NCBI RefSeq assembly: GCF_000337195.1
Contig: NZ_AOID01000041.1
Coordinates: 1 to 42,503 of the forward strand
Origin: Natrinema versiforme JCM 10478
Lineage (GTDB): Archaea > Halobacteriota > Halobacteria > Halobacteriales > Natrialbaceae
DNA: 42,503 bases
Reading direction: 5' to 3'
Shown: piece after piece, positions 12,281 through 38,067 of the stretch
Numbering within the stretch: the stretch's first letter is position 1
Layout of the letters: each line of letters begins with the position of its first letter
Position numbers and translations under genes: made by a program
Notes under the pieces: model-generated
Seen by the model: the letters and a program-made list of their open reading frames with translations, nothing else
Told to the model about the DNA's origin: nothing
Databases searched by the model: none

Positions 12281-13828
12281 ATGCAGACCGAGTTTGGGGT
12301 GGGTGGAGCGACAGCCGCGGTGCGGTCGGGGGGCGGGGCCATCGAAACGTGGACCGGCGCGACGGGGTGGACGGAGCGATCCGGCGCGGTGCTGTCGCTG
12401 GCGGACGATCCGACCGCGCTCGCGCTGATCGCGGCGGTGCTCGCGGTCGTCGGTGCCGCAGTCGTCGTCCGTGTTCGGTCCGGAACGGAAACCAACGGCT
12501 CCGACGCCACCGACCGCTCGAGCGGTGAATCGGCCGGGAGCGACATCGAGACCGAGCGCAGCCGCGAGACGGTCGCGGATCGGATCGGGGAGTCGACCCT
12601 CGAGCGACTCGAGCCGATCGTTCCCGACGCGGTCGACCGCGTCCACGAGGTCGCGTTCGACGACCGCGAGCCGGACCCGGCGGCGATCGATCGCGCCGAG
12701 CGCGACCTCCGCCGCGCGCTCGAGGACGCGCTCACCGACGGCCGATTCGACGCAGGTCTGACCGCGCCGGACGGCGAGCGTTACGAGATCGTGAACCTCC
12801 CGAGCCGGTACCGCGAACTCGCGGTGCCGCCGTCGGGGGAGACGGTCCACATCGGGTCGACGGAAGCAGCCGTCCGCGACCGGCTCGAGGACGGCACACT
12901 GCGGGAGGCGGCCGCGACCGCCGCGGCGGTCGACGACCACCGCGAGGAGATCCGTCAGTACGTTCGTCGCCGCGAGGGTGAGATCGTCGATCTGCGGGAC
13001 GAAATCGAAGCGACGTTAGACGATATCCGCGAACTGGTCGACCGCCTCGAGGGCTCGCTGGCCGATCGCGTCGACGACTTCGTGCTGTCGGGGCGACACG
13101 ACGAGGTCGAGGGCGTCGCCGAAATCGAACGCGACGTATCGGACGCGACGCGGTCGCTGCACCGCTGTTCGTTCGACGACGCGAAACGGGAGCTTCGGGA
13201 CGCCCGCGAGGCTGCCGACGAACTGCTCATCACCGTCGACCTCCTCGGCGGGCTGGTCGGGACGATCGAGCACGGCAGCGGCACGGTCGAGTTGCCGACT
13301 GCCGTCTCGACGGCGCTTGTGTCCGATCTCGTGCCGATCATCGAACGGCAGTACGACGTGGACGCGTCCGTCGAAGGGGACGCGATCGTCATTTCCGAAC
13401 GGAACGCGCTCGGCGGAGAAGGTGACACGACGGGAGCCGCGGGCGAGCCGGCGAGAGGCGGCGACGGGTCGTCGGCGCGCGAACGGACGCCGACCGGCGG
13501 GTCGACGGCCTCGGCGGGGACCAGAGACCGCGTCACGACCGAGTCAGTCGCCGACGAGATCCTGTTCGTCCTCCGGGAACTCGACGGCGACACCGGCGGC
13601 GACACCGTTCAGTGTCAGACCGAGCAACTCCCGACGGGCGTCGCGCAACCGGCCGTCCTCGAAGAACTGGCCACGTTCTGCCGGCGACAGACGGATATCG
13701 TCGCCGCGGTCGACCTGCAGGAGGGAGCGCCGCCGGGCTTTCTCGAGATCGAGTTCACCGATCGGACGACGCCGGCCGGCGGCCTCGAGACGCTGCGGGA
13801 GCGGTTCGCGGAGCGCCATGGCGGCTGA
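12281..13828 (+). CDS. Membrane-anchored coiled-coil protein, first gene of the tubulin cluster
   Basis: A 515-residue protein of unrecognised family. A single membrane segment lies at about 45-64, followed by basic residues, so the bulk is probably cytoplasmic. Residues about 120-215 form a compact domain. Residues 216-265 are a heptad-rich coiled coil (DLRDEIEATLDDIRELVDRL). After further helices, a Gly/Ser/Thr-rich linker at about 375-415 leads to a C-terminal alpha/beta segment (residues 425-515). The layout (TM, helices, small C-terminal domain) parallels the 696-residue protein at 20807. Lying just before a tubulin-like gene, it is a candidate membrane anchor or nucleator. Function is inference. 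Confidence 0.8.
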   Translation: MQTEFGVGGATAAVRSGGGAIETWTGATGWTERSGAVLSLADDPTALALIAAVLAVVGAAVVVRVRSGTETNGSDATDRSSGESAGSDIETERSRETVADRIGESTLERLEPIVPDAVDRVHEVAFDDREPDPAAIDRAERDLRRALEDALTDGRFDAGLTAPDGERYEIVNLPSRYRELAVPPSGETVHIGSTEAAVRDRLEDGTLREAAATAAAVDDHREEIRQYVRRREGEIVDLRDEIEATLDDIRELVDRLEGSLADRVDDFVLSGRHDEVEGVAEIERDVSDATRSLHRCSFDDAKRELRDAREAADELLITVDLLGGLVGTIEHGSGTVELPTAVSTALVSDLVPIIERQYDVDASVEGDAIVISERNALGGEGDTTGAAGEPARGGDGSSARERTPTGGSTASAGTRDRVTTESVADEILFVLRELDGDTGGDTVQCQTEQLPTGVAQPAVLEELATFCRRQTDIVAAVDLQEGAPPGFLEIEFTDRTTPAGGLETLRERFAERHGG

Positions 13829-14032
13829 GCCGATTGCTGCGAGACGCACCGGGGCGGGCCAGCCGCCGAAGGCCGAAGGGCGTCGTTACCCGCGCGCCGA
13901 CGGCGGCGAACGATCGACGACTTTCGTTATCGATGAAGTATCAATGAATTTTCCACAGAACGGGCCGGGAGATCGCGACCGGCGCGTCTGGCGGAGTACG
14001 GCGCGCGAACGTCGCCGGACCACACGTAATCC

Positions 14033-14038
14033 TTTAGA
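14033..14038 (+). promoter_or_regulatory. TATA-like box of the zinc-finger tubulin gene
   Basis: TTTAGA lies 34-39 bases before the ATG at 14072, predicting a leader of about ten bases. The 243-base gap before this gene otherwise holds only an AT-richer patch at 13919-13956. Confidence 0.4.
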
Positions 14039-14071
14039 TAGTTCCGACGTACGGGTAGGGTAGCACCGAGA

Positions 14072-15661
14072 ATGACGAATCTCTGTAAAATCTGTATGGC
14101 GCGGGAGGGGGAGTGGGAGCGGGCGACCCTCGTCGAGCACATTCGAGTCGCACACGGCGACGAACCGGCTTCGGTCGAACAGGTGTATCCGGAGCTGCGC
14201 GAGGAGGTCTTCGCCGCGGAGTCCGAGTCGGAACCGACCGACACCGGGCCCGAGTCGGGGACGCCGACGGAGACACCGAGCGAGGAGTTGCTCGACAGTT
14301 CGTACGGCAAGAAGTGGTTCCTCATCGGCGTCGGCGGCGCGGGCAACAACCTCCTCGACGCGATCTTGCTGCGCCGCGAGACGCTGTCCGAGAACAACGA
14401 GCGACGCGCGCGGATCTGGGAGGGCGGGCTCGCCGGCTACGGGGCGCTGAACACGAACGTCAGCGAACTCGAGCAGACCTACTACGCACAGGAGGAAAAC
14501 GACTACAGCCGTAACGACCTGCTGCCGAACTGTATCATCGGCTCGGGCCGGCACGATTACGCGGGGGCCGGCTACCGGTGGGACATCGGCAAACAGCTCA
14601 TGGAGGCCGATTTCGAGGGAGACGCTGACCCGTTCCGGGAACGGTGGGACATGCGGACCGATCACATCAAAGACTCCCAAGCGGTGATGTTCGTCCACAG
14701 CGTGACGAAAGGCACCGGCTGCGGCGCGACGCCGGTGCTCGCCGAGAAGCTCAGAACGGAGGTCCTCGCGGACGAGACGATCGTCCCGAAACCGCTCTTT
14801 AGCAGCGTCGTCATCCCGTCGGAGGGAACCGAGTACTCGGAGTACGGTGGCCGCGCGAAGGTAAACGGGGTCGTCGGGCTCGCACGTACCTCGAGAGCGG
14901 TCGACGCGATCATCCCCTTCGACAACAACCGCCTCGAGAACGTCCAGGCGGACATCCGCCCGCGGATCGACCGCCTCGAGGAGTACAACCCGCCGCAGTA
15001 CACGGAGATCAACCGGCCGCTCGTGGCGTTCCTCGAGGCGTTTACCATGTCGTCGGTGCCGCAGTTCCTCGACCGGGACGCGACGATGTCGATCATGGGC
15101 GACGTGTTCGACCCGGCCGACAGCTTCCGGCCGGTCGAAGACAAGTACCAGCTGAACCCGGACGTGTCGTTTACGCCGGCCGTGATCCTCGCGCCGGTGC
15201 TCGGGCGCTCGCGGGCGAATTCCATCGATCGATCCAAACTCGAGATCCTCGTCCGGAACGCACTGTTCCAGAACAAGCTGGCCGAGTTCGATCCGACGAC
15301 CGCGTGGGGCGGGACATTCCTGGCGTACGGGCCGCCCGAAAAGATGGACGACGTATCGGAGTTCGTCGCCGACGGGACGCTGACCGAGATCATCTCCGGC
15401 GAGGAGTTCCTCGACGCGGGCAACGTTTCGGGGATCGAAACCATCGATGTCCATGTCAAACAGCTCGTCACGCCCGATCTCGACGACGTTCACCTCTGGG
15501 GGACGCTATGGAACCCGAAGATGCCGTCGCTGTCGGACATGTACGATCAGGCCCAGCGCCTGAAACAGGAGGGCAGCACCGAGCAGGCCGAGAACGTCCG
15601 CGAGGAGTGGGACGCGGTCGAGGCGCTGTTTTCCTCTCTCGGCCGGGAGAACATGGGATAG
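14072..15661 (+). CDS. Tubulin/FtsZ-superfamily GTPase with N-terminal C2H2 zinc finger
   Basis: A 529-residue protein. Residues 5-28 form a C2H2-type finger (C5, C8, H23, H28), followed by an acidic linker (45-75). The GTPase part starts with GVGGAGNN (86-93, nucleotide loop) and ALNTN (125-129). The tubulin signature loop appears as TKGTGCGATP (212-221). FDNNRL (283-288) corresponds to the FtsZ guanine-side strand. A candidate catalytic T7 loop is VFDPADS (345-351). The C-terminus (about 380-529) matches the expected second domain plus a helical tail. It should bind GTP and polymerise. It is neither FtsZ nor CetZ, whose signatures are GGGTGTGA-like and have no zinc finger. It may belong to the divergent Tubulin_2-like family. 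Own promoter. Confidence 0.85.
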   Translation: MTNLCKICMAREGEWERATLVEHIRVAHGDEPASVEQVYPELREEVFAAESESEPTDTGPESGTPTETPSEELLDSSYGKKWFLIGVGGAGNNLLDAILLRRETLSENNERRARIWEGGLAGYGALNTNVSELEQTYYAQEENDYSRNDLLPNCIIGSGRHDYAGAGYRWDIGKQLMEADFEGDADPFRERWDMRTDHIKDSQAVMFVHSVTKGTGCGATPVLAEKLRTEVLADETIVPKPLFSSVVIPSEGTEYSEYGGRAKVNGVVGLARTSRAVDAIIPFDNNRLENVQADIRPRIDRLEEYNPPQYTEINRPLVAFLEAFTMSSVPQFLDRDATMSIMGDVFDPADSFRPVEDKYQLNPDVSFTPAVILAPVLGRSRANSIDRSKLEILVRNALFQNKLAEFDPTTAWGGTFLAYGPPEKMDDVSEFVADGTLTEIISGEEFLDAGNVSGIETIDVHVKQLVTPDLDDVHLWGTLWNPKMPSLSDMYDQAQRLKQEGSTEQAENVREEWDAVEALFSSLGRENMG

Positions 15662-15898: not shown

Positions 15899-17866
15899 AT
15901 GAGTGAGGACAACGGCCATCAGGCGAGTACCGCCGGAATCAACCCGCTCGACGGGGAGATCGTCCTCGAGAACGTCCACCCCTCGTGGATCAACTGGAAG
16001 TGGCGACTGTTCGGTTCGGTGCTGTTTCTCGTCGTCGGCCTCGGGGTCGACGGCGGTGGGAGGGGCGTGGTGATGGGGCTCGGCGTGTTGTTGTTCCTGA
16101 ACGTGTATTTCGCCCGAAAGCGGAGCCGGTACGTCGTCACGAACCAACGGATCAAGGGGAAAACGGGCCTGGTCGGCTCCTCGACGTTCGAGACCCGACT
16201 GGGGAACATCAACGGAATTTCGACCAACTCCGGTATCATCGAGGGACTGTTCGGCAAGGGAACGGTCCAGGTTACCGACGCGGCCGGCGAGCGGTTGCCT
16301 ATGAGCGGTATCGGCAACTACGAAGAACTCGCGCGGTCGCTTCGCGAGCAGCACCAACAGTCCATGCAGCCGGGACGCGGCGGCCGCGGAGCGACCGCCC
16401 GGTCCGGCCCGGCGGCAGGCCAACAGCGCGGGGGGCAAAGCACACAACAGCAGGAGCAGCAAGCTCCCGGAAACGGGGGAACCGAACCCCGATCCAACGA
16501 CCGATCGGCACCCGACCAGACCGAGACGGATACCGTGGAAAAGGACCGCTGTCTCGAGTGCGGGACCCGCGTCGATGCCGACGTGAGTTTCTGTCCGGAA
16601 TGCGGCGCGGACGATCCGTTTACGCCGTCGGAAACCGACGAGACGTCGGCTTCGACCCGCAGCGAGCCCGCGGCTGCTCCGGAACCGGGGCCCGAACCCG
16701 AACCGCGAAACCATCCAGTCACGACGATTGCCAACTCGATCGCAAACCGGCACCATCCGGACTCGAGCGCGGCGGCCGAACTCTGTCAGGCGTTAGCGGC
16801 CGAGGACGTGGACGAGCGACGGCTCGAGGATGCACTCGAGGACGCCGTCGAAACCCTCGAGACGACCGCGTCGGTGACCGACGCCGTCGAGGGAGTCGAC
16901 GACCCGTCCGAACGACGCCAACTCGAGTCCGCGCAGCGAGCCCTCGCCGGCGAGCGCGGGCGGCTTCCAGACGCGCTCGAGCCGATCGTCGATCGGACGC
17001 TCGCGCTCGGCGACGAACTCGACGCCTGCGAGCGCGACCGGGATCGGATACAAGAGGCGGCCGACGCGGCCTGTCGGGCGGCGAGCCAGAACGCGGACGT
17101 TCGATTGCGGAGCGACGATGTCGCCGATCGGACGGCACAGCTCGCCGAGACGATCGAAAGCGGCGAACTGGGCGACGACACGCCCGAGTCGACCGTGCCG
17201 TCGGTCGCCAGCGACCTCGAGCGCTCGGCCCGCCCGCAGTCGCCACAGTCCAGGGAGTTGCTCGAGACGCTGGGCGAATCGGCGTCGGACGACACCGCGT
17301 CGGTCCTGCAGTCGACGGTCGACTCGCTCGATGCGTACGCGGACTTGCAAGCGTCGATCGCTGACATCGGCGAGCGCGACGTTCGGCGGCGACTTGATGC
17401 CCTCGACGACGAACTCCAGCGGGCGGACGGCGACGTTTACCGCCACCTCGCGGACAGGGTTCGGGAACTCGAGGCGATGCTCGAGCGAGACGGCGTGACC
17501 GACGTGCAACTGTACGCGATCTATCAGGAGAGTACGTTCTACGATCGGACGCTGCTGCCGCGGCTGTCGCGGTCGCTCGACGGGGACACCGCGGCAGACA
17601 CCGGGCAGTTGATCGCCGATCTCGAGGCGCGGATCGACGAGATCGAGCGCGAGTACATCGATGTCCGGGCCGATCACAACCACACGATTCCGCGTCACTT
17701 CCTCTCGTTGGCCGACGACCTCCGGGCCGAGGCCCAGCGCGTCGACGGGGAGAGCCCGATGCGGGCGGTCGGTCTCTGCTCGGCGGCCGACGAGGTCCTC
17801 GGCCACGTCGAGGCGCTTTACGAACGAAACGAGTACAGCGTCATGCTCCGGCGGCTCCGCGGATAG
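15899..17866 (+). CDS. Membrane PH-domain, zinc-ribbon and coiled-coil protein
   Basis: A 655-residue protein. Two short membrane segments lie at 36-50 and 56-71. A bPH2-type domain follows at about 74-150 (SRYVVTNQRIKGKTGLVGSS, then TRLGNINGISTN). A Gln/Gly-rich linker leads to a zinc ribbon with C218, C221, C232 and C235 (CLECG, then CPECG). The remaining 400 residues are almost wholly helical and probably coiled coil. ATG 15899 is preferred over a GTG at 15830, whose extra residues look non-family. The N-terminal half resembles stand-alone PH proteins such as that at 8497. Between two tubulin-like genes, it is a plausible membrane scaffold for filaments. That role is inferred from context. 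Confidence 0.82.
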   Translation: MSEDNGHQASTAGINPLDGEIVLENVHPSWINWKWRLFGSVLFLVVGLGVDGGGRGVVMGLGVLLFLNVYFARKRSRYVVTNQRIKGKTGLVGSSTFETRLGNINGISTNSGIIEGLFGKGTVQVTDAAGERLPMSGIGNYEELARSLREQHQQSMQPGRGGRGATARSGPAAGQQRGGQSTQQQEQQAPGNGGTEPRSNDRSAPDQTETDTVEKDRCLECGTRVDADVSFCPECGADDPFTPSETDETSASTRSEPAAAPEPGPEPEPRNHPVTTIANSIANRHHPDSSAAAELCQALAAEDVDERRLEDALEDAVETLETTASVTDAVEGVDDPSERRQLESAQRALAGERGRLPDALEPIVDRTLALGDELDACERDRDRIQEAADAACRAASQNADVRLRSDDVADRTAQLAETIESGELGDDTPESTVPSVASDLERSARPQSPQSRELLETLGESASDDTASVLQSTVDSLDAYADLQASIADIGERDVRRRLDALDDELQRADGDVYRHLADRVRELEAMLERDGVTDVQLYAIYQESTFYDRTLLPRLSRSLDGDTAADTGQLIADLEARIDEIEREYIDVRADHNHTIPRHFLSLADDLRAEAQRVDGESPMRAVGLCSAADEVLGHVEALYERNEYSVMLRRLRG

Positions 17867-18122: not shown

Positions 18123-18151
18123 AGCTGAACGAAACGGTTTTCGATAGTTAG

Positions 18152-19531
18152 ATGACGTACCTGTTCGTTGGGGCCGGACAAGCGGGGGGTGCTATCGTCG
18201 ACTCGGTGTTCGATTACACCGACGATTCGCTGCTGGGGTTGTTCGATTCGGCCGACATTTCGACGCTGGGTCGGCCGCTGGTGTTCAATTCGACGATGCG
18301 GGACCTCCAGAACCTCTCAAACGTGCCGCCCGAAGATCAGTACGGAGTCGCAGAGCAACACGGGCTCGTCCAGGGGACCGAGCCCGGATTCGAGGAGATG
18401 GTGACCGGCGGGTTCGGTCGAAACCCGGTCGACGCCGACGAGGTGATGGCCGAGCACGCACCGCAGATCCAGACGATTCTCGGCGAGAAATTCGATCCCT
18501 CGTTCGCGAACGACGCCGGCGGTGCGGCGTTCGACGACGCACCCGAAGACGAGGTAGACGACCCGGTCGACGGCGACTCGCTCGAGGACGACGAGCCGGC
18601 CGGGACCGGTCCCGAGCCGGCGGTCGAACCGACGGGGTCGGGCGTGCAGTTCGCGTTCCTGTTCCTCGGACTCGGGGGCGGAACCGGCTGCGGGATCGGC
18701 CCGCACCTCGCCCGCGAGATCAAGGCGTTTACCGACGGTCGGACCAAGGTGGTCGCGGTTGCGGTGTTGCCGAACACGCAGAACGCGGACGCGGTCGGCG
18801 AGTCCGACGATGACGAAGATGACGTCAGCGCCGGCCGACAGGCGTGGAACGCCCGGTATGGCCTCGATCGGCTTGAGGACGAAGTGGACGGGATCGTGTT
18901 GGTCGACAACCAGCGCATCTCGTATCTCGACTCGGCGGGCGGCGAGTTCGGCGAGTACAACGAGTACGTCGCCGCGTCGATCTACGATCTCGTCGCCGGG
19001 CCGGTGTTGAGCGGGATCGACCCGAGCGCGGTCGACGGCATCGACACGCCGGATATCGACGTTCGGGACATCGTCACCTCGCTGTCGTTCGGCGTCGCCG
19101 GCGAGGAATCGGAGCCGGGCTACGCCGCGATCGGTCGCTCGGTGACGATGACACAGTCGCTGCCGGGCTATCTTCTGCCATTCGTCGGCAAACGCGACAT
19201 CGACAGCGCGGCGCTCTCGCGGCTGTCGGCGGCAAAGCAGACCCTCGCGAAGGCCGACGTCGAGGACGCCCAGAAGGCGATTTCGCTGATCAGGGCACCG
19301 AAGGCGAACCTCGGATCCGGCGGTCACAGCGTCGAAATCGGGACGGTCAAGCGATACCTCGAGGGGACCAGTAACCTGAGCGAGGTCAACCTCGGCGTCG
19401 CGATGAGCGATCGGAACCTCGCGTCGGTGACGACGCTGCTGACCTACCGCCGCGAGGACCTCGACCGGCTCGCGGATATCGAAGCGGCCGCCGAGGCCTA
19501 CGAAGCGGAAACGGAGGAGTTGCTTACATGA
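18152..19531 (+). CDS. Tubulin/FtsZ-superfamily GTPase, CetZ-like N-terminus
   Basis: A 459-residue protein, second of three superfamily members. The nucleotide loop VGAGQAGGAIVD begins at residue 6 and is close to the GFGQAGG start of CetZ. The signature loop is GLGGGTGCGIGP (173-184). A strand IVLVDNQRI (248-256) and a T7-like loop DIDVRDI (301-307), followed by GYAAIGRS, match the FtsZ/CetZ order and retain the catalytic acidic residues. Between the loops lies a very acidic insertion at about 121-162. Other CetZ hallmarks (NTDTA) are replaced by VFNSTMRDL, so it is not a standard CetZ. First gene of an eight-gene operon, with its stop overlapping the next start (ATGA). Polymerisation is predicted, not shown. 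Confidence 0.87.
   Translation: MTYLFVGAGQAGGAIVDSVFDYTDDSLLGLFDSADISTLGRPLVFNSTMRDLQNLSNVPPEDQYGVAEQHGLVQGTEPGFEEMVTGGFGRNPVDADEVMAEHAPQIQTILGEKFDPSFANDAGGAAFDDAPEDEVDDPVDGDSLEDDEPAGTGPEPAVEPTGSGVQFAFLFLGLGGGTGCGIGPHLAREIKAFTDGRTKVVAVAVLPNTQNADAVGESDDDEDDVSAGRQAWNARYGLDRLEDEVDGIVLVDNQRISYLDSAGGEFGEYNEYVAASIYDLVAGPVLSGIDPSAVDGIDTPDIDVRDIVTSLSFGVAGEESEPGYAAIGRSVTMTQSLPGYLLPFVGKRDIDSAALSRLSAAKQTLAKADVEDAQKAISLIRAPKANLGSGGHSVEIGTVKRYLEGTSNLSEVNLGVAMSDRNLASVTTLLTYRREDLDRLADIEAAAEAYEAETEELLT
19513..19519 (+). promoter_or_regulatory. Shine-Dalgarno for the 87-residue membrane protein
   Basis: GGAGGAG lies 8 bases before the ATG at 19528, inside the end of the preceding gene. It supports the overlapping start. 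Confidence 0.45.
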
Positions 19532-19791
19532 CGCGGCGGCGGGCTACGCTGTGCGTGCTCGTCCTCGTCGTCGTCCTCTGTGGACTCACGGCGACGGTCG
19601 CGGCGGACGAATCTGCCGTGGAAACGGCCATCGAGGAGACGAACGGAGCCGATACCGCGACATCGCTCGCGGAGCAAACGCTGCCGCTTGCGGCCGGCGG
19701 TGCGCTGCTCGGGCTCGGCCTCGGTGCCGCGGTCGCGAGCGGAATCACGTACTGGTACAAGAATCGGGAAATCGGGGGGCGACTGCAATGA
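19528..19791 (+). CDS. Small secreted/membrane protein with signal peptide and one TM
   Basis: An 87-residue protein. A Sec-type signal (residues 1-26, RRR followed by a leucine/valine core and an ATVAADE-like end) precedes a 25-residue external segment. A second hydrophobic, Gly/Ala-rich helix lies at about 53-72, followed by a short basic tail (WYKNREIGGRL) inside. It overlaps its neighbours by 4 bases at each end, so it is surely translated with them. No known family recognised. Such a tiny single-pass protein beside a filament GTPase may be a membrane tether; that is a guess from position. Confidence 0.72.
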   Translation: MTRRRATLCVLVLVVVLCGLTATVAADESAVETAIEETNGADTATSLAEQTLPLAAGGALLGLGLGAAVASGITYWYKNREIGGRLQ

Positions 19792-27084: not shown

Positions 27085-28080
27085 ATGCCCACACGATCTA
27101 CCCGACGGTCGATGCTACTCGCGGCGATACTCGTCGTCGCGACGGTCGCGACGGTACCCCTCTTCGGAGGGACCGCCGCCGCACAGGAGGAGAGCGCGAA
27201 CGACTACTTCGAGACGTTCCGCGGGATGGAGGGGACCGAGGCCTACCAGGAGTACGACGAACTCGAGACGGTCCGAACCTTCGCCGTGTCCCAGACGCAG
27301 GTGACCGGCGACCTCTCCGCCGACGAGCGCGCGGAGTTCGCGGCCGTCGCCGGCACCCTGCGGGCGTTCGACCGCGCTTACGTCCGCGCCGAAGACGGCG
27401 AGTACGAGGCGAGTCTCGCCGCCGCCGAGAACGTCAGCGAACATATCGACGACCTCGAGCAGTACGACCAGACGCAGGCGACGCTCGCCGGACTCGCGCT
27501 GACGCGGTTCTACGAGCGACTCGGCGACGGGCTCTACGAGGAGGCCGACGCCGTGAACCGAACGCCCGACCGGATCGAGCGCCTCGAGATGACCGCGACC
27601 GCCTACGAGCGGGCGGACATGCCCGACGAGGCGGCTCAGTTCCGAGTGCAGGCCGAGCAGTTGACCGCCGAGTACGAGCGCGACCGCGAGACCATCGCGA
27701 CCGCGCGCAACGCGACGGCGACCTTCGTCGAAGACTGCACCGATTGCGCGGACGTCCAGGCGGCCATCAGCGCAAACGGCCTCGAGACGTTCGCGGCCTA
27801 CGGGGAGGCACGAGCGACCGAAAGCCAGATTCGGGACGCCAGCGACCGCGCGGCGACCCACGGACTCACCGATCGAGAGGACGAACTGACCGCGATGGCC
27901 GACGACGTGACCGAGACCCGAACGACGCTCGCGATCGCCTCGAGCGCGGTGCTGGTCGGCTACGGGGTCGCCGTCGGACTGTTGGGAACGATCATCGTCG
28001 GACGGCTCTTCCTCTGGCGACGGACCTACGAGGCGTCGAGAGTCGGCTCGGTCGTCGCAGTGGGTGATAGCGATGTCTGA
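27085..28080 (+). CDS. Signal-peptide, helical ectodomain, single-TM protein
   Basis: A 331-residue protein. Signal peptide (1-33, ending GGTAAAQ) and an acidic, alpha-helical ectodomain of about 240 residues, including a cysteine pair in EDCTDCADV. One membrane helix lies at about 285-310, followed by a short cytoplasmic tail with RRTYEASR. The regular helix pattern with paired Ala/Tyr positions suggests a TPR-like or spectrin-like bundle. It begins 3 bases after the previous stop. The same topology recurs in the following 751-residue protein, whose helical part also precedes a C-terminal TM. They may be partners. Not a known family to me. Confidence 0.78.
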   Translation: MPTRSTRRSMLLAAILVVATVATVPLFGGTAAAQEESANDYFETFRGMEGTEAYQEYDELETVRTFAVSQTQVTGDLSADERAEFAAVAGTLRAFDRAYVRAEDGEYEASLAAAENVSEHIDDLEQYDQTQATLAGLALTRFYERLGDGLYEEADAVNRTPDRIERLEMTATAYERADMPDEAAQFRVQAEQLTAEYERDRETIATARNATATFVEDCTDCADVQAAISANGLETFAAYGEARATESQIRDASDRAATHGLTDREDELTAMADDVTETRTTLAIASSAVLVGYGVAVGLLGTIIVGRLFLWRRTYEASRVGSVVAVGDSDV

Positions 28081-30387: not shown

Positions 30388-33333
30388 TTACTCGAGGCGG
30401 AACGGCGTCGACAGCGACGACGGAACGCTCCGAGTTGACGACTCGTTTTCGACGCGCTCGATCGACCAACGCTCGCGGTGGGCGTCGGTCCAGTCCGCCT
30501 CGTCCGCGACCGACGGGCCGGCTGCGCGAACGGCGTGTTCGCGCTCGGCGTCGTCGACCGCGAACCGGACCGTCGCGTCGAACGACGGGTCCGAGACGCC
30601 GGGTTCGATATCGACGAAGTGCTCGATTCGATCGCCGGGCTCGAGGCGCTCGCGGCGCGCTTCCGAGTAGAACAGTTCATTGATCGGCTCGCCGCTCGCC
30701 GACACCGCGACGTCCGACAGCGGCCGGTCGCCCTCGTTCTCGAAGACGAGCACGACGGTCCCGTACTCGCCGGCGACCTGCGTCTCCGGGCCGATCGCGA
30801 TCCGGAACCGGTCGTCGTCATCGGCGGAGCCGGCCGCAATCGACGAGACCGTCGCGACGATATCGATCCGGCGGTCGGTGCCGTCCCCGTCGGTGACTTC
30901 CAGCACTCCTTCAATAGCGTCCGCGTCACCGTCTACGTCCGCCGCGTCCCAGCGCTCGGGGCCGGCGGTCGCGGTCGTCGACTCGCCGGCGGCGAGGCGC
31001 GCCTCGAGCGGGACCGCGCGGCCGGCGATCTCGAGCCCGCGAACCCGACGGGGCCGGTCGTCGCGGTTCTCGAGGTCGGCGACGACGGTCCCGTCGGTCG
31101 GATCGACGGTGGCCCGAACGGCGACGCCGCCCTCGCCGGCAGCGATCGTGCGTTCGGAAAGCCGCTCGCGAACGTCTCCGTTGACCGTGATCGATGCCGA
31201 CGGCAGGGTGGCGCTCTCGCCCGAGAGGACCGCCACCGATCGCTCGAGGGTCGTCCGCTCGCCGCCCGCGAGCCGACCGATATCGACGGTCGAATCGCCA
31301 ATATCGACGGCAACGGTCGCCGCCGAGTCGCCCTCGTTCTCGAGGTCGATTCGGTCCCGGACCGCGTGCCCGACCGGTGCCCGCTCCTCGTCCGGCCGCC
31401 GCGTCGCGACGATGAGAGAGTCGCCGGCGGTATCGTCGCCGGTCGCAGATTCGGCTGGGTCGGGGCTGGGACTCTCTTCGCCGTTGGCTTCGGGTCCGCC
31501 AGCGGCCGTTTCAGTGCGTTCCTCGATGCTGTCAGCCGACTCCGTCTCGTCCCCGCTCGTCGGCTCGGTTCCGACCGCCGACCCGTCTGAAGTACCGCCG
31601 TCGCCGACCGAATCGTCGGCGGTCGCGGACGGCGTGGCGGCCGACTCGGATTGGGCGGACCGAGCAGATCGGGACGATCGGGACCGGCTCGCGCCGCCGA
31701 GTCCCGACGAACTAGAGAGCGTCCCCGGACCACCGCCGGAGAGCCGGACCCGTTCGTCGACGTCGAGCGACTCGAGGCCGATCCGGGCGGTGCCGTCCTC
31801 GAACCGGGGCACGACGAGCAGCAGGTCATCGCCCTCGACGGTTACCTCGGTCCGAACCCGGCCCGCTCCCGGGAGTTCGATCACGAGCCGGTCGACGACG
31901 GGCACCGTGCCGTCGATCTCGACGGTCGCACGGATCGCGTCCTCGTCGGGTTCGACATCGATGGTCGGGATCGGCGGCAGCGTACACGTCGGGGCGTACT
32001 CCCGGCGGCGCTCGCCGCGGGCGACCTCGAGGCCGACCGACACCCGCCGGTCGGGTTCGTACGGCCGCGTGACGGTCCCCGTCCACGTCTCGCCGGGCTC
32101 AAGGGCGTCTGTGCCCGCGTCCGTCTCGCGGAGCCGAACGTCCTCGAGCGCCACGCCGCCGACGTTCTCGACGGCGACCGCGAGTTCGGCGACGCCGTGA
32201 TCGATCGTTGTCGCCTCGAGATCGGTTTCGACGGCTATCCCGCCGCTCGCGGCGTCGTCCAGTTCGATCGCCGCCCGCTCGACGACTGAATCGTCGACGG
32301 CGAGTTCGACTTCCGTCTCGCCTTCGGCCCTGACCGATTCGACCGGGAAGTCCACGAGCGTCGTCTCGCCCGCCTCGATCGCTGCGGTCCGTTCGTCCGG
32401 CGAGAGCGTCGCCCCGTCGACGGCGGCGGTCAGTGAGACGCGACGCTTTCGGTCGGTGACGTTGGTCACCTCGACGTCGATCGTGCCGCCGACGCCGACG
32501 CTGTCGGTCGCGACGGCGAGCCGGAGCCGGTCGCGGCTGTGCGTGTGGATCGACACCGTCCCGTCCCGGATCGCACAGACGAGCGACCCGTCGGCCGTCG
32601 CGTAGCCGTCGCCGCTCGAGAGGCCCGAAACCGAGGCCGTCGCGCCCGCGGGGTCGACCGCGCGGATGCCGTCCGCCGTGGTTACCAGCACCAAGGAATC
32701 GCCGACCGGCGCGACGTGTTTGGCCGCGAGTTCCGTCTGCCAGCGCGACTGGCCGGTCTCGAGGTCGGCCGAGACGAGCCGATCGTTCTGCAGGGCGGCG
32801 ACGATCGCGTCGTCACACCGCCCCAGACTCCGCACCACGGCCTCGAGGTTCCGGTCGAAGGCGACCTCGCCGTCGGGATCGATCCGGGTCAGGAACGACC
32901 ACGTCGCGATCACGAAGCCGGAGGGCGTGCCGAGCAAGCCGTCGTCGGCCGGACCGCCCGGCCGCGTGCGCTCGATATCGAACTGCTCGCGACCGGTCGC
33001 GATATCGACGGCGCGAAGCCGATCCGGCCCGAGCACGCCGACGAGCCCCGTCTCGGGGACGGCGGCGATCGCGTGTGCGTCCCCGACCGGCTGCTGTCGG
33101 ATCCGGTCGCCGTCCCGCGAGTAGGTCGTCAGCGTCTCCGCCGAGAGGACGAGCACGCGATCGGCCAGCGCGAGGTCGACGACCCGCTCGCCGTGGTCGA
33201 TCTCGAGGCTGTCCCCGCCAGTGGCCACGACGACGCGGTCGTCGGCCCCGAGCGCGATCGCCCCGTCGCCGACGCCGACGGCGTCGACGCGGCCGCTCTC
33301 GAAGGAGCCGACCTGCCGGTAGCCGTCACTCAT
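30388..33333 (-). CDS. Cytosolic beta-propeller and Ig-repeat protein
   Basis: A 981-residue protein without signal peptide or TM. Residues 1-275 contain PQQ/WD-like propeller repeats (for example DLETGQSRWQTELAAKHVAP, then VLVTTADGIRAVDPAGA). They are followed by CARDB-like Ig domains (about 278-560) with the pattern VEVTNVTDRKRRVSLTAAV. A long Ser/Asp/Glu/Thr-rich linker spans about 562-690, and more Ig domains complete the C-terminus. Such domains normally occur outside cells, so their use in the cytoplasm is odd. It is the last gene of the minus operon, overlapping the AAA ATPase by 8 bases, with a strong GGAGGTGAG site. Possibly a large scaffold or cargo recogniser for the ATPase. Confidence 0.82.
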   Translation of the reverse strand: MSDGYRQVGSFESGRVDAVGVGDGAIALGADDRVVVATGGDSLEIDHGERVVDLALADRVLVLSAETLTTYSRDGDRIRQQPVGDAHAIAAVPETGLVGVLGPDRLRAVDIATGREQFDIERTRPGGPADDGLLGTPSGFVIATWSFLTRIDPDGEVAFDRNLEAVVRSLGRCDDAIVAALQNDRLVSADLETGQSRWQTELAAKHVAPVGDSLVLVTTADGIRAVDPAGATASVSGLSSGDGYATADGSLVCAIRDGTVSIHTHSRDRLRLAVATDSVGVGGTIDVEVTNVTDRKRRVSLTAAVDGATLSPDERTAAIEAGETTLVDFPVESVRAEGETEVELAVDDSVVERAAIELDDAASGGIAVETDLEATTIDHGVAELAVAVENVGGVALEDVRLRETDAGTDALEPGETWTGTVTRPYEPDRRVSVGLEVARGERRREYAPTCTLPPIPTIDVEPDEDAIRATVEIDGTVPVVDRLVIELPGAGRVRTEVTVEGDDLLLVVPRFEDGTARIGLESLDVDERVRLSGGGPGTLSSSSGLGGASRSRSSRSARSAQSESAATPSATADDSVGDGGTSDGSAVGTEPTSGDETESADSIEERTETAAGGPEANGEESPSPDPAESATGDDTAGDSLIVATRRPDEERAPVGHAVRDRIDLENEGDSAATVAVDIGDSTVDIGRLAGGERTTLERSVAVLSGESATLPSASITVNGDVRERLSERTIAAGEGGVAVRATVDPTDGTVVADLENRDDRPRRVRGLEIAGRAVPLEARLAAGESTTATAGPERWDAADVDGDADAIEGVLEVTDGDGTDRRIDIVATVSSIAAGSADDDDRFRIAIGPETQVAGEYGTVVLVFENEGDRPLSDVAVSASGEPINELFYSEARRERLEPGDRIEHFVDIEPGVSDPSFDATVRFAVDDAEREHAVRAAGPSVADEADWTDAHRERWSIERVENESSTRSVPSSLSTPFRLE

Positions 33334-35095
33334 CGCCCTCACCTCCGCTCGAGCCGGCGTCTTCGTCCGCCTCGTCGGGCTCCGAGATATCGATCTCGGC
33401 CATGTCCGAACTCGAGTCGTCCGTCGTTGCCGACCCCGAGGGCGGTTCGTCCGACGGCGTCGCGGTTCCGTCCGTCGGAGCCCCCTCCGCCGGCGTCGCG
33501 GCCCCGGCTGACGGGGCCGAATCGCCGCCGAGCAACTGGCCGAGCGAGGCTGGCTCCGAGCCGAGGCCCATTCCCAGCCGGTCGGCCTGCTCTTCAACGT
33601 AGCGTTTGAGTTCGGGGTAGCCCTCGAGGTCGTCGATCTGGGTCCGCACGCTCGCGACGTACTGGCGGATCGTCTTCGGCTCGGTCGCCTCGAGGCGCTC
33701 GAGGAAGTAGTCGGTGTCCGGTTCGATTGGCTCGCGATCGGGGAGGTGGACGCTCTCGACGAGTTCGCGCTGGAGGTCGCTTCCGAGGACGCGATCGGCG
33801 ATTTCGGCCGGGGTGTACCCCTTCGATTCGGCCCCGATGCGCTCGTAGTCGACCGCCGTCGTGCCAGTCATCGACGAGAGGTGCTTGCGCCAGACCTCGG
33901 CCATGACCGTCTCGTCGGGCTGGGGAATGAACTGCTGGATCGGGAACCGACGGGTCGCCGCCGGGTCGATGGTAAACGGCATGTTCGTCGCCCCGATCAC
34001 GAGCAGGTTGTCCTCGATCTCGTTCATCTCCTGGAGGAAGGCGTTAGTCAGCGACCGCTCGTGGCGCTGCAGGGAGTCGTCGCCGCGGTCCGGAATGAGG
34101 GTGTCGACCTCGTCGAAGAAGAGGACCGCGAAGCCGTCCTGTGCGATCCCGTGGGCCTTCTCGAAGATCGCCTCGACGCGTTTCTCCGACTCCCCCGAGT
34201 ACTTCGAGAGCACGTCGCTGCCCTTGATCTCGAGGAACTTGACCTCGCCGTAGCTCTCCTCGATGCGGGAGTTGAACTTCGCCTCGTAGGCGATCGCCTC
34301 CGAGATGAGCGTCTTCCCACAGCCCGGCGGCCCGTACAACAGCATGCTGTTGCCCCGCGAGGCGAACTCGTCGCCGTAGCGGTCGATGACCTCGTCGCGA
34401 ACGTCCGGATCGAACAGCGCGAGCAGGTTCTCCGCGGTCCGCTTGACCTCCGGGAGCCCGGCGACGTCCTCCTCGAAGCTGACGGTCGGCTTCTTCGGTT
34501 CGAGCGAGACCTGTACCTCCTCGTCGTTGCCGGCCCCCTCCTCGCCGGCCCCGCCGGGACCGGGGCCGCCGCGACTCGCCGCGTTTCTGGTCGCGCGAAG
34601 CTCCCGAAGTTCCCCGGCGTCGATGAACTCGAGGTCGGTGTTCGGCGTGACCCGCAGCGTCGCGTAGTCGGTCGGCTCCATCGCCGCGACTTCGAAGGTC
34701 GCCAACTCGTCGCCTTTCGGGACGACCTCTTCCATCGGGTGGAGCAGGTAGTCGTTCTCCCGGAGGAACGGCTCGAGGTCGTCTGGGACGATCTCGCTGG
34801 TGTGGATCTTCGCCGTGGAACACTCCACGACATCGCGTTTCGACACGTCCGAATCGACCAGGAAGTCCTTGCCCCGGTCGATACCACCGAACACGGTTTC
34901 GACGTTCTGGTGCATCCGGACCTTGTTCCCAATCCCATCGATGATCGAGTCGTCGACCGGTTCGACGTAGAAAAAGGCCCGCCTGTCGTTGTGGCGAATC
35001 TCGACGGTATTGGTGTTCGGTCCGACCTTCTTCGCTCCGATCTTGATCCGGGACGTCGGCTGATCTCGCTTCAGTATTGGCGTCAGGTTATGCAT
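33326..35095 (-). CDS. AAA ATPase with CDC48-N-like domain
   Basis: A 589-residue ATPase. Residues 1-160 look like a double-psi barrel N-domain: EVAAMEPTDYATLRVTPNT resembles the VVETDP-Y-V-P-T end of the CDC48 N-domain. A Gly-rich linker lies at 175-190. The single AAA domain follows, with Walker A GPPGCGKT (255-262), Walker B VLFFDEVD (324-331), sensor GATN (368-371) and arginine finger RR (382-383). A helical small domain and a disordered acidic tail complete it. No MIT domain and no second AAA ring, so it is neither Vps4 nor full CDC48. It overlaps its neighbours by 8 bases at each end. It should unfold or extract proteins, most simply those encoded beside it. Confidence 0.9.
   Translation of the reverse strand: MHNLTPILKRDQPTSRIKIGAKKVGPNTNTVEIRHNDRRAFFYVEPVDDSIIDGIGNKVRMHQNVETVFGGIDRGKDFLVDSDVSKRDVVECSTAKIHTSEIVPDDLEPFLRENDYLLHPMEEVVPKGDELATFEVAAMEPTDYATLRVTPNTDLEFIDAGELRELRATRNAASRGGPGPGGAGEEGAGNDEEVQVSLEPKKPTVSFEEDVAGLPEVKRTAENLLALFDPDVRDEVIDRYGDEFASRGNSMLLYGPPGCGKTLISEAIAYEAKFNSRIEESYGEVKFLEIKGSDVLSKYSGESEKRVEAIFEKAHGIAQDGFAVLFFDEVDTLIPDRGDDSLQRHERSLTNAFLQEMNEIEDNLLVIGATNMPFTIDPAATRRFPIQQFIPQPDETVMAEVWRKHLSSMTGTTAVDYERIGAESKGYTPAEIADRVLGSDLQRELVESVHLPDREPIEPDTDYFLERLEATEPKTIRQYVASVRTQIDDLEGYPELKRYVEEQADRLGMGLGSEPASLGQLLGGDSAPSAGAATPAEGAPTDGTATPSDEPPSGSATTDDSSSDMAEIDISEPDEADEDAGSSGGEGDE
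33338..33346 (-). promoter_or_regulatory. Shine-Dalgarno of the propeller/Ig gene
   Basis: GGAGGTGAG on the minus strand lies 4 bases before the ATG at 33333, inside the AAA gene, and supports that start. Confidence 0.45.
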
Positions 35096-35816
35096 TGTCG
35101 TCACTCCGTAGCTGCGTCGTCGCGTCCTCGATCGTCGATAACAGTTCGTCCTGCCGGTGGTCCGCCCGGTCGCGGACGTACCGGGTGTCGGCGTCGGCCC
35201 GGCGAACGACCAGCGAGAGCGTCTCGAGCATCCGGGCGATCGCCTCGCAGCCGGTCGCGAGCGGCCCGTCGACATCGCCGGCCTGCACCCGACGGACGAT
35301 CCGCTCGAAGTCCTCGCGGACACCCTCGAGTCGCTCAAGTAAGGTCTCGATGAGCGGTCGCCAGTTGCGCGCGTACGGCGCGGTCGCAGACAGCGGGACG
35401 ATCACCCTCGAGTCGACGGTCTCGAGGCGATCCGCGGCCGCGACGCGGTCGGCGACCGCCGGCGAGAGGTCCCCGATCGGCGTCGACCCGCGCTCGTACC
35501 CGGTCTCGAGGACCAGTCGAACGAGATCGTCCCGGTCTGCCGGACTCTCTCCCGACCCCGTTGCCGTTCGACCGGAGCCGCCGTCGGGCAGGCAGTCACG
35601 GCCCGCTCGATCGCTGGTCTCGGTTTCGATCTCAGTCTCGAGTCGCGGCGGGAACGGTGCCCCGGCGCGAAGTAGTTCGGCGAGGTCAACGAGGGCGGCC
35701 ATCGCGGTGTCGACCCACAGCGCGGGTTCCGACCCCGAGAAGGTCCGCACGGAGAGGAGTCGCTCCCCCTGTTCGTCGACCCGACGAACCCCCTGCAGCA
35801 ACGAGTCTGCGCGCAT
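35088..35816 (-). CDS. Uncharacterised helical protein next to the AAA ATPase
   Basis: A 242-residue protein with no TM and no recognised motif. The N-terminal 55 residues (LLQGVRRVDEQGERLLSVRT) and the C-terminal 120 are predicted helical, with a Thr/Glu/Gly-rich loop at about 60-95. The C-terminal helices (PLIETLLERLEGVREDFERI, then TRYVRDRADHRQDELLSTIE) suggest a bundle that may bind a partner. It starts 1 base after the coiled-coil gene ends and overlaps the AAA start by 8 bases. Overlap on both sides suggests fixed stoichiometry. It may be an adaptor between the ATPase and the coiled-coil protein. Confidence 0.7.
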   Translation of the reverse strand: MRADSLLQGVRRVDEQGERLLSVRTFSGSEPALWVDTAMAALVDLAELLRAGAPFPPRLETEIETETSDRAGRDCLPDGGSGRTATGSGESPADRDDLVRLVLETGYERGSTPIGDLSPAVADRVAAADRLETVDSRVIVPLSATAPYARNWRPLIETLLERLEGVREDFERIVRRVQAGDVDGPLATGCEAIARMLETLSLVVRRADADTRYVRDRADHRQDELLSTIEDATTQLRSDDNA

Positions 35817-35817
35817 C

Positions 35818-36876
35818 CTACGACATCCCGAGTTCGCTGGCCTCGGTTTCGGGGTCGGTCTCCTCGACCTCCTCGCCGGCCGTCTGCTGTGCGGTTTCGC
35901 CGAGCGAGCCGATATCGCTGAGGATGTCGTCGGCCATCGAGTCCAGTTCGTGGTCCGCCGTATTCTCTAGCTCCTCTTCGAAGCCGCCCACGCCGGCGAG
36001 TTGGGTCGTCAGCTCCCCCATGTTGTCGACGATGTTCATCGCCTCGTCGGGGAACGTCTGCTTCTTGAGCGCTTGGGTCCGGACCTGTTCGCGCTTGTTT
36101 CCGAGCGTCATCTTGGCCGACTCCAGCATCTCGATGTTGTCGGCCAGCCTGTCGGCACCGCTCTCGACCTTCTCGGCCAAGTTCTCCTGATCGGCCTCCT
36201 TCATCTTCTTGTGGTAGATCAGCTTCCGCTTGAGCTGCGTGAACCGCTCTCGCTCCTCTTCCGGAAGCGTCGACGGATCCTTCGGGACGCCCGCGCCGGT
36301 GCCGAGGCTCTTCAGTTCCTGTGCGGTCTCTTCGAGGTGTTCGTCGATCTTCCCCGAGCTCTGGTCGATGTCGGCCATCCGGTTCTCGAGTTTCTCCTTT
36401 GCGCTGTCGACCCGGTCGATCGTCTCGGAGATCTTCTCGACGCAGGCGTCGATCGCGGCCGCCCAGTTCAGGATCATCCGACCGTTTATCTCCTCGGGGT
36501 TGTCGCTGGGGTTGCGAAGCATCACGACCTGTCCGCCCTGCAGGTCCAGGATGTCCTCGTCGGCGAGGAATTCGAGAAGCGCCTCGGCCTGCTGTTCGCT
36601 CGTGACGATGTCGCCATCCTCGTCGCTTGCCGAGGCGAGCGTTTCGATCGCTCGCCGGCGGTCGATCCGTCCGTTCCCCTCCTTGAGTTCCATCGATCCC
36701 AGCAGGTCGGTCTTGATGATCGCCCGGATGGCCCGCTCCCACTCCCCTTCGATGTCGTCGCCCTCGATCCAGCGGGCGTCGAGGCGAACCGGGTCGTCGG
36801 TCTGGTTGACTGGGTCGGCGATCACGAACTCCCGTCCGTCGCTTTCGATGCGTTCGAATTCGTACTTTTGTGGCAT
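35818..36876 (-). CDS. Coiled-coil protein with winged-helix-like N-terminus, ESCRT-III-like outline
   Basis: A 352-residue soluble protein. Residues about 45-122 look like a winged helix (IIKTDLLGSMELKEGNGRID, then LADEDILDLQGGQVVMLR). Then come a long helix (136-195), a Lys/Arg-rich second helix (about 210-285, with TQLKRKLIYHKKMKEADQE) and an acidic tail with short helices (DDILSDIGSLGETA). A basic helical hairpin plus acidic C-terminal helices is the outline of ESCRT-III/Snf7 proteins, and an AAA ATPase is two genes away. No conserved MIM sequence is certain. It could equally be an unrelated coiled-coil bundle. Reported as a hypothesis; profile searches would decide. Confidence 0.72.
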   Translation of the reverse strand: MPQKYEFERIESDGREFVIADPVNQTDDPVRLDARWIEGDDIEGEWERAIRAIIKTDLLGSMELKEGNGRIDRRRAIETLASASDEDGDIVTSEQQAEALLEFLADEDILDLQGGQVVMLRNPSDNPEEINGRMILNWAAAIDACVEKISETIDRVDSAKEKLENRMADIDQSSGKIDEHLEETAQELKSLGTGAGVPKDPSTLPEEERERFTQLKRKLIYHKKMKEADQENLAEKVESGADRLADNIEMLESAKMTLGNKREQVRTQALKKQTFPDEAMNIVDNMGELTTQLAGVGGFEEELENTADHELDSMADDILSDIGSLGETAQQTAGEEVEETDPETEASELGMS

Positions 36877-36948
36877 TGTGTCTCTGTTGTGGTTGCGTCG
36901 GTCGTTCAGGATGACTGTGTGTCGCGTTCGAGTATCCGTTCGGGCCCG

Positions 36949-38067
36949 TTAGGCGGCCATACCGCCGAACTCCTCCTCGTTGACGAGGCTCCGGTAGCGG
37001 TCCCGGACCGCGTCGCGGACGTACTCGTTGACTTCCGTCGCGTTGCTCACCTGCAGTTCCTCGAAGTGGTCCTCGGCCAGTTCGACCCACTCCGGCAGCG
37101 TGCCGGGCAGCTGGTCCTGCTCGGCTTTCAGGTCGGTCCGGATCCGTCTGGCGTGGTCCTCGACCACGTCCTCGAAGGGGCCGACTGCCTCGACCATCTC
37201 CCGCCCCCGGTCGAGCCCGAGCCGGTCGATCACCGAGTCGCGGGTGCTCTCGAGGATCTCGCTGCGGACGCTCCGGGCCGTCGAGAGGACGTCGAACCGG
37301 CTGTCGATCTCGTTTTCGACGACCTGCTCGAACTCGGCGGTCCGGAGCACGTAACTCGAGTCCTCGAACTCGGCCTCGACGTCGTCCTCGATTCGTTCGG
37401 CCAGATACCGGGCGTACTCGTCGATCGCCTCCTCGACCAGATACTCCCCGTCGAGATCGACGATATATCCCTCGCGGTCGAGATACCGGATCACGTCGGA
37501 CGTCGCATCGACGTCGATGACGCTCTCGAGGTCGCCGTGGGCAATCTTCCCGTTCGAGGCCTCCCGCTCGAGCCGCGAGTCCAGGCCGACGTCGTCGGCG
37601 TGTTCCTTGAGCTGGGGGCCGATCGTGTAGTAGTCGCGTTTGCCGGCGGTGATCCGCCGAACGTAGTTCCGGTCGGCGAGTTCGTCGGCGAAGAACTCCA
37701 TGTCATCGATCGCGAGCGAGAACCGCGAGCGCAGGGTCTCTCCGGTGACGACCAGCCGCTGGCCGAACAGGTTGGTCAGTTCCCGGGTGATGTTCATGTT
37801 CCCTTTGACGCCGAACGGATCCACGTAGAAGACGCCGTCACGGAGTTGCTCGAGGTCGACGAACTCGTCGGCTGTCATCTCGGTCAGCGCCTTGCGCATG
37901 TCGCTCGAGGAGAGCGACCGCGCGTTGACGAGGCCGATGTCGGCGCTCTCGTAGGCGGACTTGATCTCGCTCTTCTGATCGGAGACGTAGATAAATCCGT
38001 AGTTGTCCTGGGCGATGTCACGACAGACGTCTTCCAGAACGTCGGTATCGACCGGTAAGAGCGTCAT
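36949..38067 (-). CDS. Winged-helix-rich soluble protein, first gene of the minus operon
   Basis: A 372-residue acidic protein with no TM. It seems to contain successive winged-helix-like units at about 60-150 (FFADELADRNYVRRITAGKR, then YYTIGP) and about 170-215 (GKIAHGDLESVIDVDATSDV, then GYIVDLDGEYLVEE). A helical C-terminus follows. The order of short units, with gkI-DL, L-GyI and dgeylvee patterns, recalls by eye the N-terminal part of UFL1 and PCI-type scaffolds; this is a weak resemblance. A DNA-binding role is also possible. A TATA-like box about 28 bases before the ATG suggests it is leaderless and leads the operon. Confidence 0.75.
   Translation of the reverse strand: MTLLPVDTDVLEDVCRDIAQDNYGFIYVSDQKSEIKSAYESADIGLVNARSLSSSDMRKALTEMTADEFVDLEQLRDGVFYVDPFGVKGNMNITRELTNLFGQRLVVTGETLRSRFSLAIDDMEFFADELADRNYVRRITAGKRDYYTIGPQLKEHADDVGLDSRLEREASNGKIAHGDLESVIDVDATSDVIRYLDREGYIVDLDGEYLVEEAIDEYARYLAERIEDDVEAEFEDSSYVLRTAEFEQVVENEIDSRFDVLSTARSVRSEILESTRDSVIDRLGLDRGREMVEAVGPFEDVVEDHARRIRTDLKAEQDQLPGTLPEWVELAEDHFEELQVSNATEVNEYVRDAVRDRYRSLVNEEEFGGMAA

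Follow-up and report, generated by a model that had tools for sequence, protein, structure and literature searches.

We analysed a 42,503-nucleotide window of DNA (bases 1-42503 of a 70-kb contig) from the 4.19-Mb genome of Natrinema versiforme JCM 10478. The window holds a cluster of ~26 kb, at 12281-38067, that encodes three tubulin-type GTPases together with a set of proteins resembling a predicted archaeal endosomal sorting complex required for transport (ESCRT). An earlier reading of this DNA, made without database searches (the sequence-only reading), had placed the cluster correctly: gA starts at 12281 and the minus-strand gene gO starts at 38067. It had counted 14 genes, three GTPases plus 11 others. 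We count 16, including the overlapping gene at 19528-19791, of which 11 lie on the plus strand and five on the minus strand. The plus half encodes the tubulins, putative tethers, and secreted or membrane proteins; the minus half encodes a beta-propeller/Ig protein, a Cdc48/Vps4-like AAA protein, and winged-helix and coiled-coil proteins. The two halves converge at ~30.35 kb. From gD through gJ, adjacent genes overlap or almost touch, and spacers of 237-285 bp separate gA, gB, gC, and the gD-gJ run. Topology was assigned by simple hydropathy on the window proteins, and Pfam scans covered 15 of the 16 cluster proteins. The genes are as follows.

gA, 12281..13828, plus strand: 515 aa; one N-terminal transmembrane segment, then helical/coiled-coil; putative filament tether; orthologue at 24 of 26 loci
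gB, 14072..15661, plus strand: 529 aa; N-terminal C..C..H..H zinc-finger-like motif and tubulin/FtsZ GTPase domain (PF00091, 4e-12)
gC, 15899..17866, plus strand: 655 aa; bPH_2 (bacterial PH) domain beside a hydrophobic segment, zinc ribbon, helical C-terminus (Pfam, hydropathy)
gD, 18152..19531, plus strand: 459 aa; tubulin/FtsZ GTPase (PF00091, 1.5e-11); at 26 of 26 loci
gD2, 19528..19791, plus strand: 87 aa; two hydrophobic segments (signal-like N-terminus, one transmembrane segment); counterparts annotated at other loci
gE, 19788..20810, plus strand: 340 aa; signal-like N-terminus, middle region, two C-terminal transmembrane segments (hydropathy)
gF, 20807..22897, plus strand: 696 aa; two N-terminal transmembrane segments, then a large helical and beta-sandwich-like part
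gG, 22901..24127, plus strand: 408 aa; tubulin/FtsZ GTPase (PF00091, 4.2e-9)
gH, 24130..27081, plus strand: 983 aa; signal-like N-terminus, further transmembrane segments, CarboxypepD-like beta-sandwich (below the Pfam cut-off), conserved C-terminal end
gI, 27085..28080, plus strand: 331 aa; signal-like N-terminus, helical part, one C-terminal transmembrane segment, short tail; two invariant Cys
gJ, 28073..30328, plus strand: 751 aa; Ig-like domains, helical part, C-terminal transmembrane segment, conserved tail ending EAVSGDFL-like
gK, 30388..33333, minus strand: 981 aa; N-terminal PQQ-type beta-propeller and Ig-like segments, no transmembrane segment predicted; adaptin-like as the term is used by Makarova et al. 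2024
gL, 33326..35095, minus strand: 589 aa; one AAA domain (Cdc48/Vps4-like; PF00004, 5.4e-32) behind an N-terminal domain of ~190 aa
gM, 35088..35816, minus strand: 242 aa; helical; in an ESCRT-III-like position directly upstream of the ATPase gene
gN, 35818..36876, minus strand: 352 aa; winged helix and long coiled-coil hairpin (AlphaFold model, predicted local distance difference test [pLDDT] 65.6)
gO, 36949..38067, minus strand: 372 aa; tandem winged helices (AlphaFold model, pLDDT 88.3; Foldseek)

Profile searches, which the sequence-only reading had proposed as a check on its three GTPase candidates, place all of them within the tubulin superfamily. Against a cut-off of 33 bits for PF00091 (Pfam Tubulin), gB scores 47.2, gD 45.4, and gG 37.4 bits. 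The G-rich loops and an invariant, T7-like D..D pair are kept in each, as seen in alignments of 24, 26, and 26 orthologues, respectively. The three family profiles align pairwise over 286-323 columns with a probability of 97-98%, and the D..D pairs of gD and gG, as well as those of gB and gG, fall in the same columns. Compared with PDB sequences, the gD and gG profiles clearly match FtsZ/CetZ-type chains (4.5e-12 and 3.2e-13). The N-terminal C..C..H..H motif of gB is conserved in at least 85% of its 24 orthologues.

The three proteins share the superfamily domain and GTP loops of CetZ and FtsZ1/FtsZ2, but belong to neither family. CetZ membership was rejected because none of the three matches CetZ_C (PF21011, Pfam), and FtsZ membership because their scores of 34, 22, and 24 bits are far under the 295-bit cut-off of the FtsZ equivalog TIGR00065. 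In the tree, gB, gD, and gG form three fully supported groups separate from the FtsZ and CetZ proteins of their own genome, and their stems measure 1.9-2.4 changes per site; the order in which these groups branch is not settled by the tree because of their long branches. Two FtsZ-type genes exist besides the cluster in all 26 genomes that carry gG, and we take these to be FtsZ1 and FtsZ2. These data bear on the idea that the cluster is a dispensable cytoskeleton for cell shape or division, in which additional FtsZ/CetZ paralogues and their envelope partners alter morphology and the ESCRT-like half merely turns the filaments over. Conserved GTP loops in FtsZ/CetZ-superfamily proteins and the many transmembrane partners are what such a cytoskeleton would have, and CetZ1 is described in the literature as shaping haloarchaeal cells. 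However, the long-stemmed clades stand apart from the resident FtsZ and CetZ, CetZ_C is missing, and all 26 carriers have their two other FtsZ-type genes while gG itself occurs in just 26 of 242 genomes. We therefore regard a shape or division role as rather unlikely.

A closer description of these GTPases is available. Santana-Molina et al. 2023 (PMC9871819) report Halo.Tub proteins, tubulin-like paralogues of Halobacterota that lie outside canonical CetZ and occur in quasi-tandem copies. Like them, gB, gD, and gG have coiled-coil neighbors and stand in several quasi-tandem copies, and they are probably Halo.Tub proteins, a comparison made with the published description only. The full cluster is not described in the part of that paper available to us.

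At the 1e-7 level, below their best FtsZ/CetZ-type chains, the gD and gG profiles also distantly match RepX, TubZ, and a phage FtsZ-like protein (PDB). This would suit a DNA- or plasmid-segregation system of the TubZRC kind, in which tubulin filaments pull DNA through gM, gN, and gO as winged-helix adaptors. Winged-helix proteins are indeed present, and gG and gB occur together in five plasmid records (Halobacterium salinarum R1 PHS2, Natrinema sp. SYSU A 869, and three from Halobaculum; four places inspected). On the other side, of the 25 gG copies outside the window, 11 sit on contigs larger than 2.8 Mb, and at least seven of the cluster's proteins have transmembrane or signal-like segments. 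Segregation is thus very improbable as the function of the cluster.

The membrane and secreted partners are encoded in the plus half. One transmembrane segment is predicted in gA, and two are found in all 26 gF orthologues. A signal-like N-terminus plus additional transmembrane segments is predicted for gD2, gE, gH, gI, and gJ, with numbers that vary among gH and gJ orthologues. An Ig-like domain is the best family in 11 of 21 gJ members (Pfam). The C-terminal ends of gH and gJ are well conserved: the last 15 residues have a mean identity of 0.70 in gH (0.40 overall) and 0.67 in gJ (0.50 overall). The best 25-residue stretch of gH, from residue 860, also reaches 0.70. Profile searches returned no convincing PDB sequence relative of gF, gI, or gJ. 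Such proteins could belong to a machine for surface adhesion, motility, or cell contact, whose filaments move or position Ig-like surface proteins and which makes no vesicles. The Ig-like gJ with its signal-like N-terminus, gH, and the conserved ends of both agree with this, as does the fact that the gD-gK core can occur without gB and gO. However, no pilin family was found by Pfam among the 15 of 16 proteins scanned, and an adhesion machine leaves the AAA/winged-helix half unexplained; we consider it unlikely, about on a par with the shape cytoskeleton.

The minus half does find a counterpart among known systems. Makarova et al. 2024 (PMC11188069, PMC10936438) predicted the Halo_adaptin type of archaeal ESCRT system, with Haloquadratum walsbyi as reference species; the H. 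walsbyi J07HQW1 locus was compared here in place of the cited accession WP_014555335.1. By the available parts of that description, the Halo_adaptin system has a Vps4-like AAA ATPase with a non-MIT N-terminal domain, a protein in the ESCRT-III place upstream of the ATPase, a winged helix fused to a coiled coil next upstream, and a tandem winged-helix protein as the proximal gene. The cluster matches each of these. The relatives of gL are nearest in Cdc48 (7.5e-55) and include Vps4B (3.9e-33); it has a single PF00004 stretch, and MIT is absent among the 20 Pfam families listed for it at E up to 1. By position, gM takes the ESCRT-III place, directly upstream of the gL gene at all 17 loci found with gO. 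By their models, gN corresponds to the winged helix-coiled coil fusion and gO (Foldseek included) to the tandem winged helix. A propeller/Ig adaptin-like protein (gK), further Ig-like proteins, a membrane protein, a CetZ-related GTPase (gB, gD, and gG are of this superfamily), and the same gene order complete the likeness. For gK, Pfam finds the PQQ_2 propeller in 10 of 17 members and NEW3/Ig-like domains in two of 17, and hydropathy predicts no transmembrane segment in 19 of 21 orthologues. In addition, an invariant N-W is common to gM and gN, and their profiles match weakly (probability 41%, E 0.0003).

Two structural labels were tried and set aside. Vipp1 and CHMP chains are listed for the gN model, non-significantly and among other coiled coils, so gN was not accepted as ESCRT-III by structure; a second structural aligner likewise lists other coiled coils. 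For gO, a relationship to UFM1 ligase was dropped in favor of the label "tandem winged helix": at Z 8-9 the second aligner gives folds of SelB, MarR-type, and ESCRT-II proteins, and UFL1 does not figure in its 50 listed matches, which by themselves exclude nothing.

We conclude that the cluster very probably belongs to the archaeal ESCRT systems of the Halo_adaptin type. The differences are of content. One CetZ-related GTPase is named in the available description, compared with three superfamily tubulins here; one membrane protein is named there, compared with at least seven transmembrane or signal-like proteins here; and two propeller adaptin-like proteins are reported there, compared with one seen here. 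At the J07HQW1 locus itself, three PF00091 proteins lie within 9 kb, and by position we assign them to gB, gD, and gG; the two others of the five in that genome score like FtsZ. The three tubulin-type GTPases very probably belong to the Halo_adaptin system, whose tubulin content is under-described in the parts of the 2024 text available. We found no statement of three tubulins in the system in the literature searched (subscription papers and supplements excluded). Nor did the accessible 2024 text state a tie of gB to the ESCRT half, a gD/gG and membrane set standing alone, or a clean presence/absence unit.

The cluster is sparsely distributed and well conserved in order. We find gG orthologues (42-100% identity) in 26 of 242 Halobacteria genomes; among the remaining 216, 203 have weak superfamily matches and 13 have no gG match. 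The gene order recurs, whole or in part, at the 25 other loci. Two of these are shortened (G042 and G048), three have no minus half nearby (G017, G061, and G098), and one (G162) is ended by a contig break between gL and gM. Across the 26 loci, single-query tblastn detects gD, gF, gG, gH, gI, and gJ at all 26; gA, gB, and gC at 24; gK and gL at 21; gN and gO at 20; gE at 17; and gM at 15. Genes that are present keep the same order. These are minimum counts: with profiles, gE is found at two further loci, and a multi-query search gives gM at 17 of 17 gO loci. The order gO-gN-gM-gL holds in the window and at all 17 of those loci, which come from Halobiforma, Halorubrum, Haloarchaeobius, Natronomonas, Halorussus, Haloquadratum walsbyi, Halobaculum, Halopenitus, and Haloferacaceae metagenome genomes.

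The two halves are linked by inheritance. Class-wide searches of the 242 genomes find gO (E up to 1e-10) in 24 and gB (E < 1e-200) in 24, and the two sets of genomes are identical. Choosing 24 genomes from 242 can be done in ~10^33 ways, a number to be read with the kinship of the genomes in mind, as these are not 24 independent events. The association does not depend on physical linkage, because gO is distant from gB in three genomes: by 266 kb in G017 and 72 kb in G098, on the same contig, and on a different contig in G061. Pairwise distances also agree, with partial rank correlations to gG distances, given FtsZ1, of 0.67-0.95 for eleven cluster genes (19 genomes, 171 pairs, the pairs not being independent). 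The neighborhood comparison suggested by the sequence-only reading therefore bears it out: the genes are co-conserved at 25 other loci, gB and gO share their genomes, and distances are correlated.

We find that the cluster is a clean presence/absence unit whose genes are co-inherited. Loci were fetched for 16 of 21 Natrinema genomes. In 14 of them, the Hel308-like and HAD genes adjoin, ~20-720 bp apart, with no cluster between; gO and gB are absent genome-wide in six of these 14, the six covered by the class-wide searches. In the window and in G192, the cluster stands between the same Hel308-like and HAD flanks, and in G558 gO and gN adjoin the HAD gene. The cluster edges have no terminal repeats, the longest shared word being only 8 bp. 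G141, from another family, has a gG that is 82% identical to that of the window, compared with 64% for G203 and G214 from the same family, whereas FtsZ1 is 85-87% identical in all three. This points to transfer of the cluster as a unit, although loss would also fit at the shared site.

Patchy distribution and clean empty sites are common for defence islands. The cluster could accordingly serve in defence against viruses or in conflict between strains, as a large machine of cytoskeleton-like make that genomes acquire and lose as an island. However, PADLOC gives just generic AAA and coiled-coil model matches among the 10 of 16 cluster proteins scanned, and among the 15 of 16 covered by Pfam, none shows a known effector domain. 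Defence is therefore quite unlikely. Among the rivals weighed here, shape and surface adhesion are the strongest, followed by defence and then DNA segregation.

Copies also exist on plasmids. H. salinarum R1 PHS2 carries the full cluster (OE_RS12000-OE_RS12075), and no other Halobacterium plasmid record matched gG or gB. On the Natrinema sp. SYSU A 869 plasmid, gB and gG are 87% and 96% identical to those of the window, and the annotated minus half differs in gene number and size. The Halobaculum halobium plasmid NZ_CP126159.1 has two copies of the cluster, in one of which shorter pieces are annotated where gB and gD would stand.

More distant relatives show the modules in other combinations. 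Distant relatives of gA-gB-gC occur without gO in G031 (gB, 1.4e-75) and G081 (gB, 4.6e-93). In G081 (C4, L136 1896-15543), these and a propeller protein stand beside a 1143-aa Tubulin_2 protein (1.6e-11), a locus that joins the systems of 2010 (FtsZl1) and 2024 (Halo_adaptin). In G031 (C9, L138 8406-20755 with L139), a protein kinase domain is joined to a gH relative in one protein, and a weak AAA relative of gL is nearby. G048, which holds a short form of the cluster, also encodes a second, distant gG-like tubulin (C8, L147 10242-11438; 132 bits). In a phylum sample of 392 genomes, a gG relative (E < 1e-80) occurs in ten, nine of them Halobacteria. G478, from the same phylum but outside Halobacteria and 66% complete, has relatives of gF, gG, gH (in two pieces), gI, and gJ with a two-AAA Cdc48, rearranged, on a 41%-GC contig (C155). 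A wider occurrence in the order of G478 was rejected: among 53 genomes of that order, G478 alone has a gG relative (E 1e-22).

The sequence-only reading had cited the divergent FtsZ/tubulin family of Makarova and Koonin 2010 (PMC2875224), FtsZl1. That family resembles gB, gD, and gG as a tubulin-superfamily protein in a multigene, membrane-associated locus of unassigned function. In the parts of the paper available, FtsZl1 is described as a Tubulin_2 family with a coiled-coil extension in which T6-H7 is not identifiable, and its neighbors are vWA, kinase, P-loop GTPase, or OmpA proteins. In contrast, gB, gD, and gG have no Tubulin_2 match (PF13809, E up to 1) and do have T7-like acids, and the 15 of 16 cluster proteins that were scanned include none of those neighbor types. 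They are therefore not FtsZl1. The broader idea of a multicomponent filament, membrane, and ATPase system fits the anatomy, yet it missed the match of the minus half to an ESCRT-like system. The earlier observation is thus confirmed, and its interpretation is partly supported.

The cluster likely combines membrane-tied tubulin filaments with ESCRT-like remodeling for cargo sorting or budding; the 2024 authors, in the text available, also suggest cargo sorting or vesicles for Halo_adaptin. We tentatively propose the following mechanism, to which we give somewhat less than even chances. gD and gG, perhaps with gB, would polymerize under the membrane, where gF, gA, and the PH protein gC may tether the filament. 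The C-terminal ends of gH and gJ, and perhaps gI, could couple the filament to external Ig-like domains with cargo or the surface layer as their binding partner. gO and gN would recruit an ESCRT-III-like gM, and gL would pull the assembly apart with ATP. With a distribution equal to that of gO, gB is the likely coupler of the tubulin filament to the ESCRT half. The output would be sorted membrane patches or vesicles, rather than cell division.

Several observations weigh against this proposal. The gB profile matches FtsZ/tubulin chains in the PDB weakly (5.8e-4), and its D..D pair does not align with that of gD; the T7 assignment is consequently least certain for gB, so that the loops and acidic pair noted in the sequence-only reading hold for all three GTPases and its T7 label holds less firmly for one. 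On the ESCRT side, none of 18 gM members has a Pfam match to ESCRT-III or PspA. The ATPase of Halo_adaptin has, by the accessible description, an N-terminal domain related to VAT/Cdc48 N, whereas the N-terminal domain of gL (a profile of 200 aa and 11 rows) has no significant PDB sequence match. The gN model, of modest confidence, has no significant PDB structure match (best E 0.018). For gO, Foldseek puts UFL1 complexes best (2e-6), ahead of SelB and ESCRT-II, all with low TM-scores (a structural-similarity measure). No second propeller protein was found in the cluster by Pfam, compared with the two reported in the paper. The gI tail shows no extra conservation (0.49, against 0.50 overall). 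G042 and G048 hold gD-gK without gB or gO anywhere in the genome; therefore, the ESCRT half is not always needed. Finally, we found no experiment on the system in the literature searched, with the same exclusions as above.

Taken as a whole, a Halo_adaptin system with three tubulin-type GTPases and the sorting mechanism remains the explanation we favor, at slightly better than even. A bolder version is doubtful, a little less probable than the shape or adhesion machines: a mixed gB/gD/gG polymer might be mechanically coupled to the ESCRT-like half, with zinc-finger gB recruiting gO, gN, and gM. In that case, gL could disassemble tubulin filaments besides or instead of ESCRT-III, as a prokaryotic counterpart of katanin or spastin, and gA-gB-gC might be a portable adaptor that also serves FtsZl1-type systems, as at the G081 locus.

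Tubulin-type filaments and ESCRT-type machines are both great membrane shapers, and their inheritance as a single unit, as seen here for an ESCRT-like module and three deeply divergent relatives of tubulin, is unusual. The full copy on the H. salinarum R1 plasmid makes its role testable by gene removal, and the clean empty sites in Natrinema provide natural comparisons.

Two minor features lie in or near the window. ARAGORN calls a tRNA-Leu (gag) at 20100-20184 on the minus strand, inside gE on the opposite strand; the call is probably false. Outside the window, 8 kb beyond the cluster, a CetZ-family gene (CetZ_C, 8e-38) lies at C41:46018 (L009 3619-4767), and its neighbors resemble, by eye, tRNA-synthetase genes.

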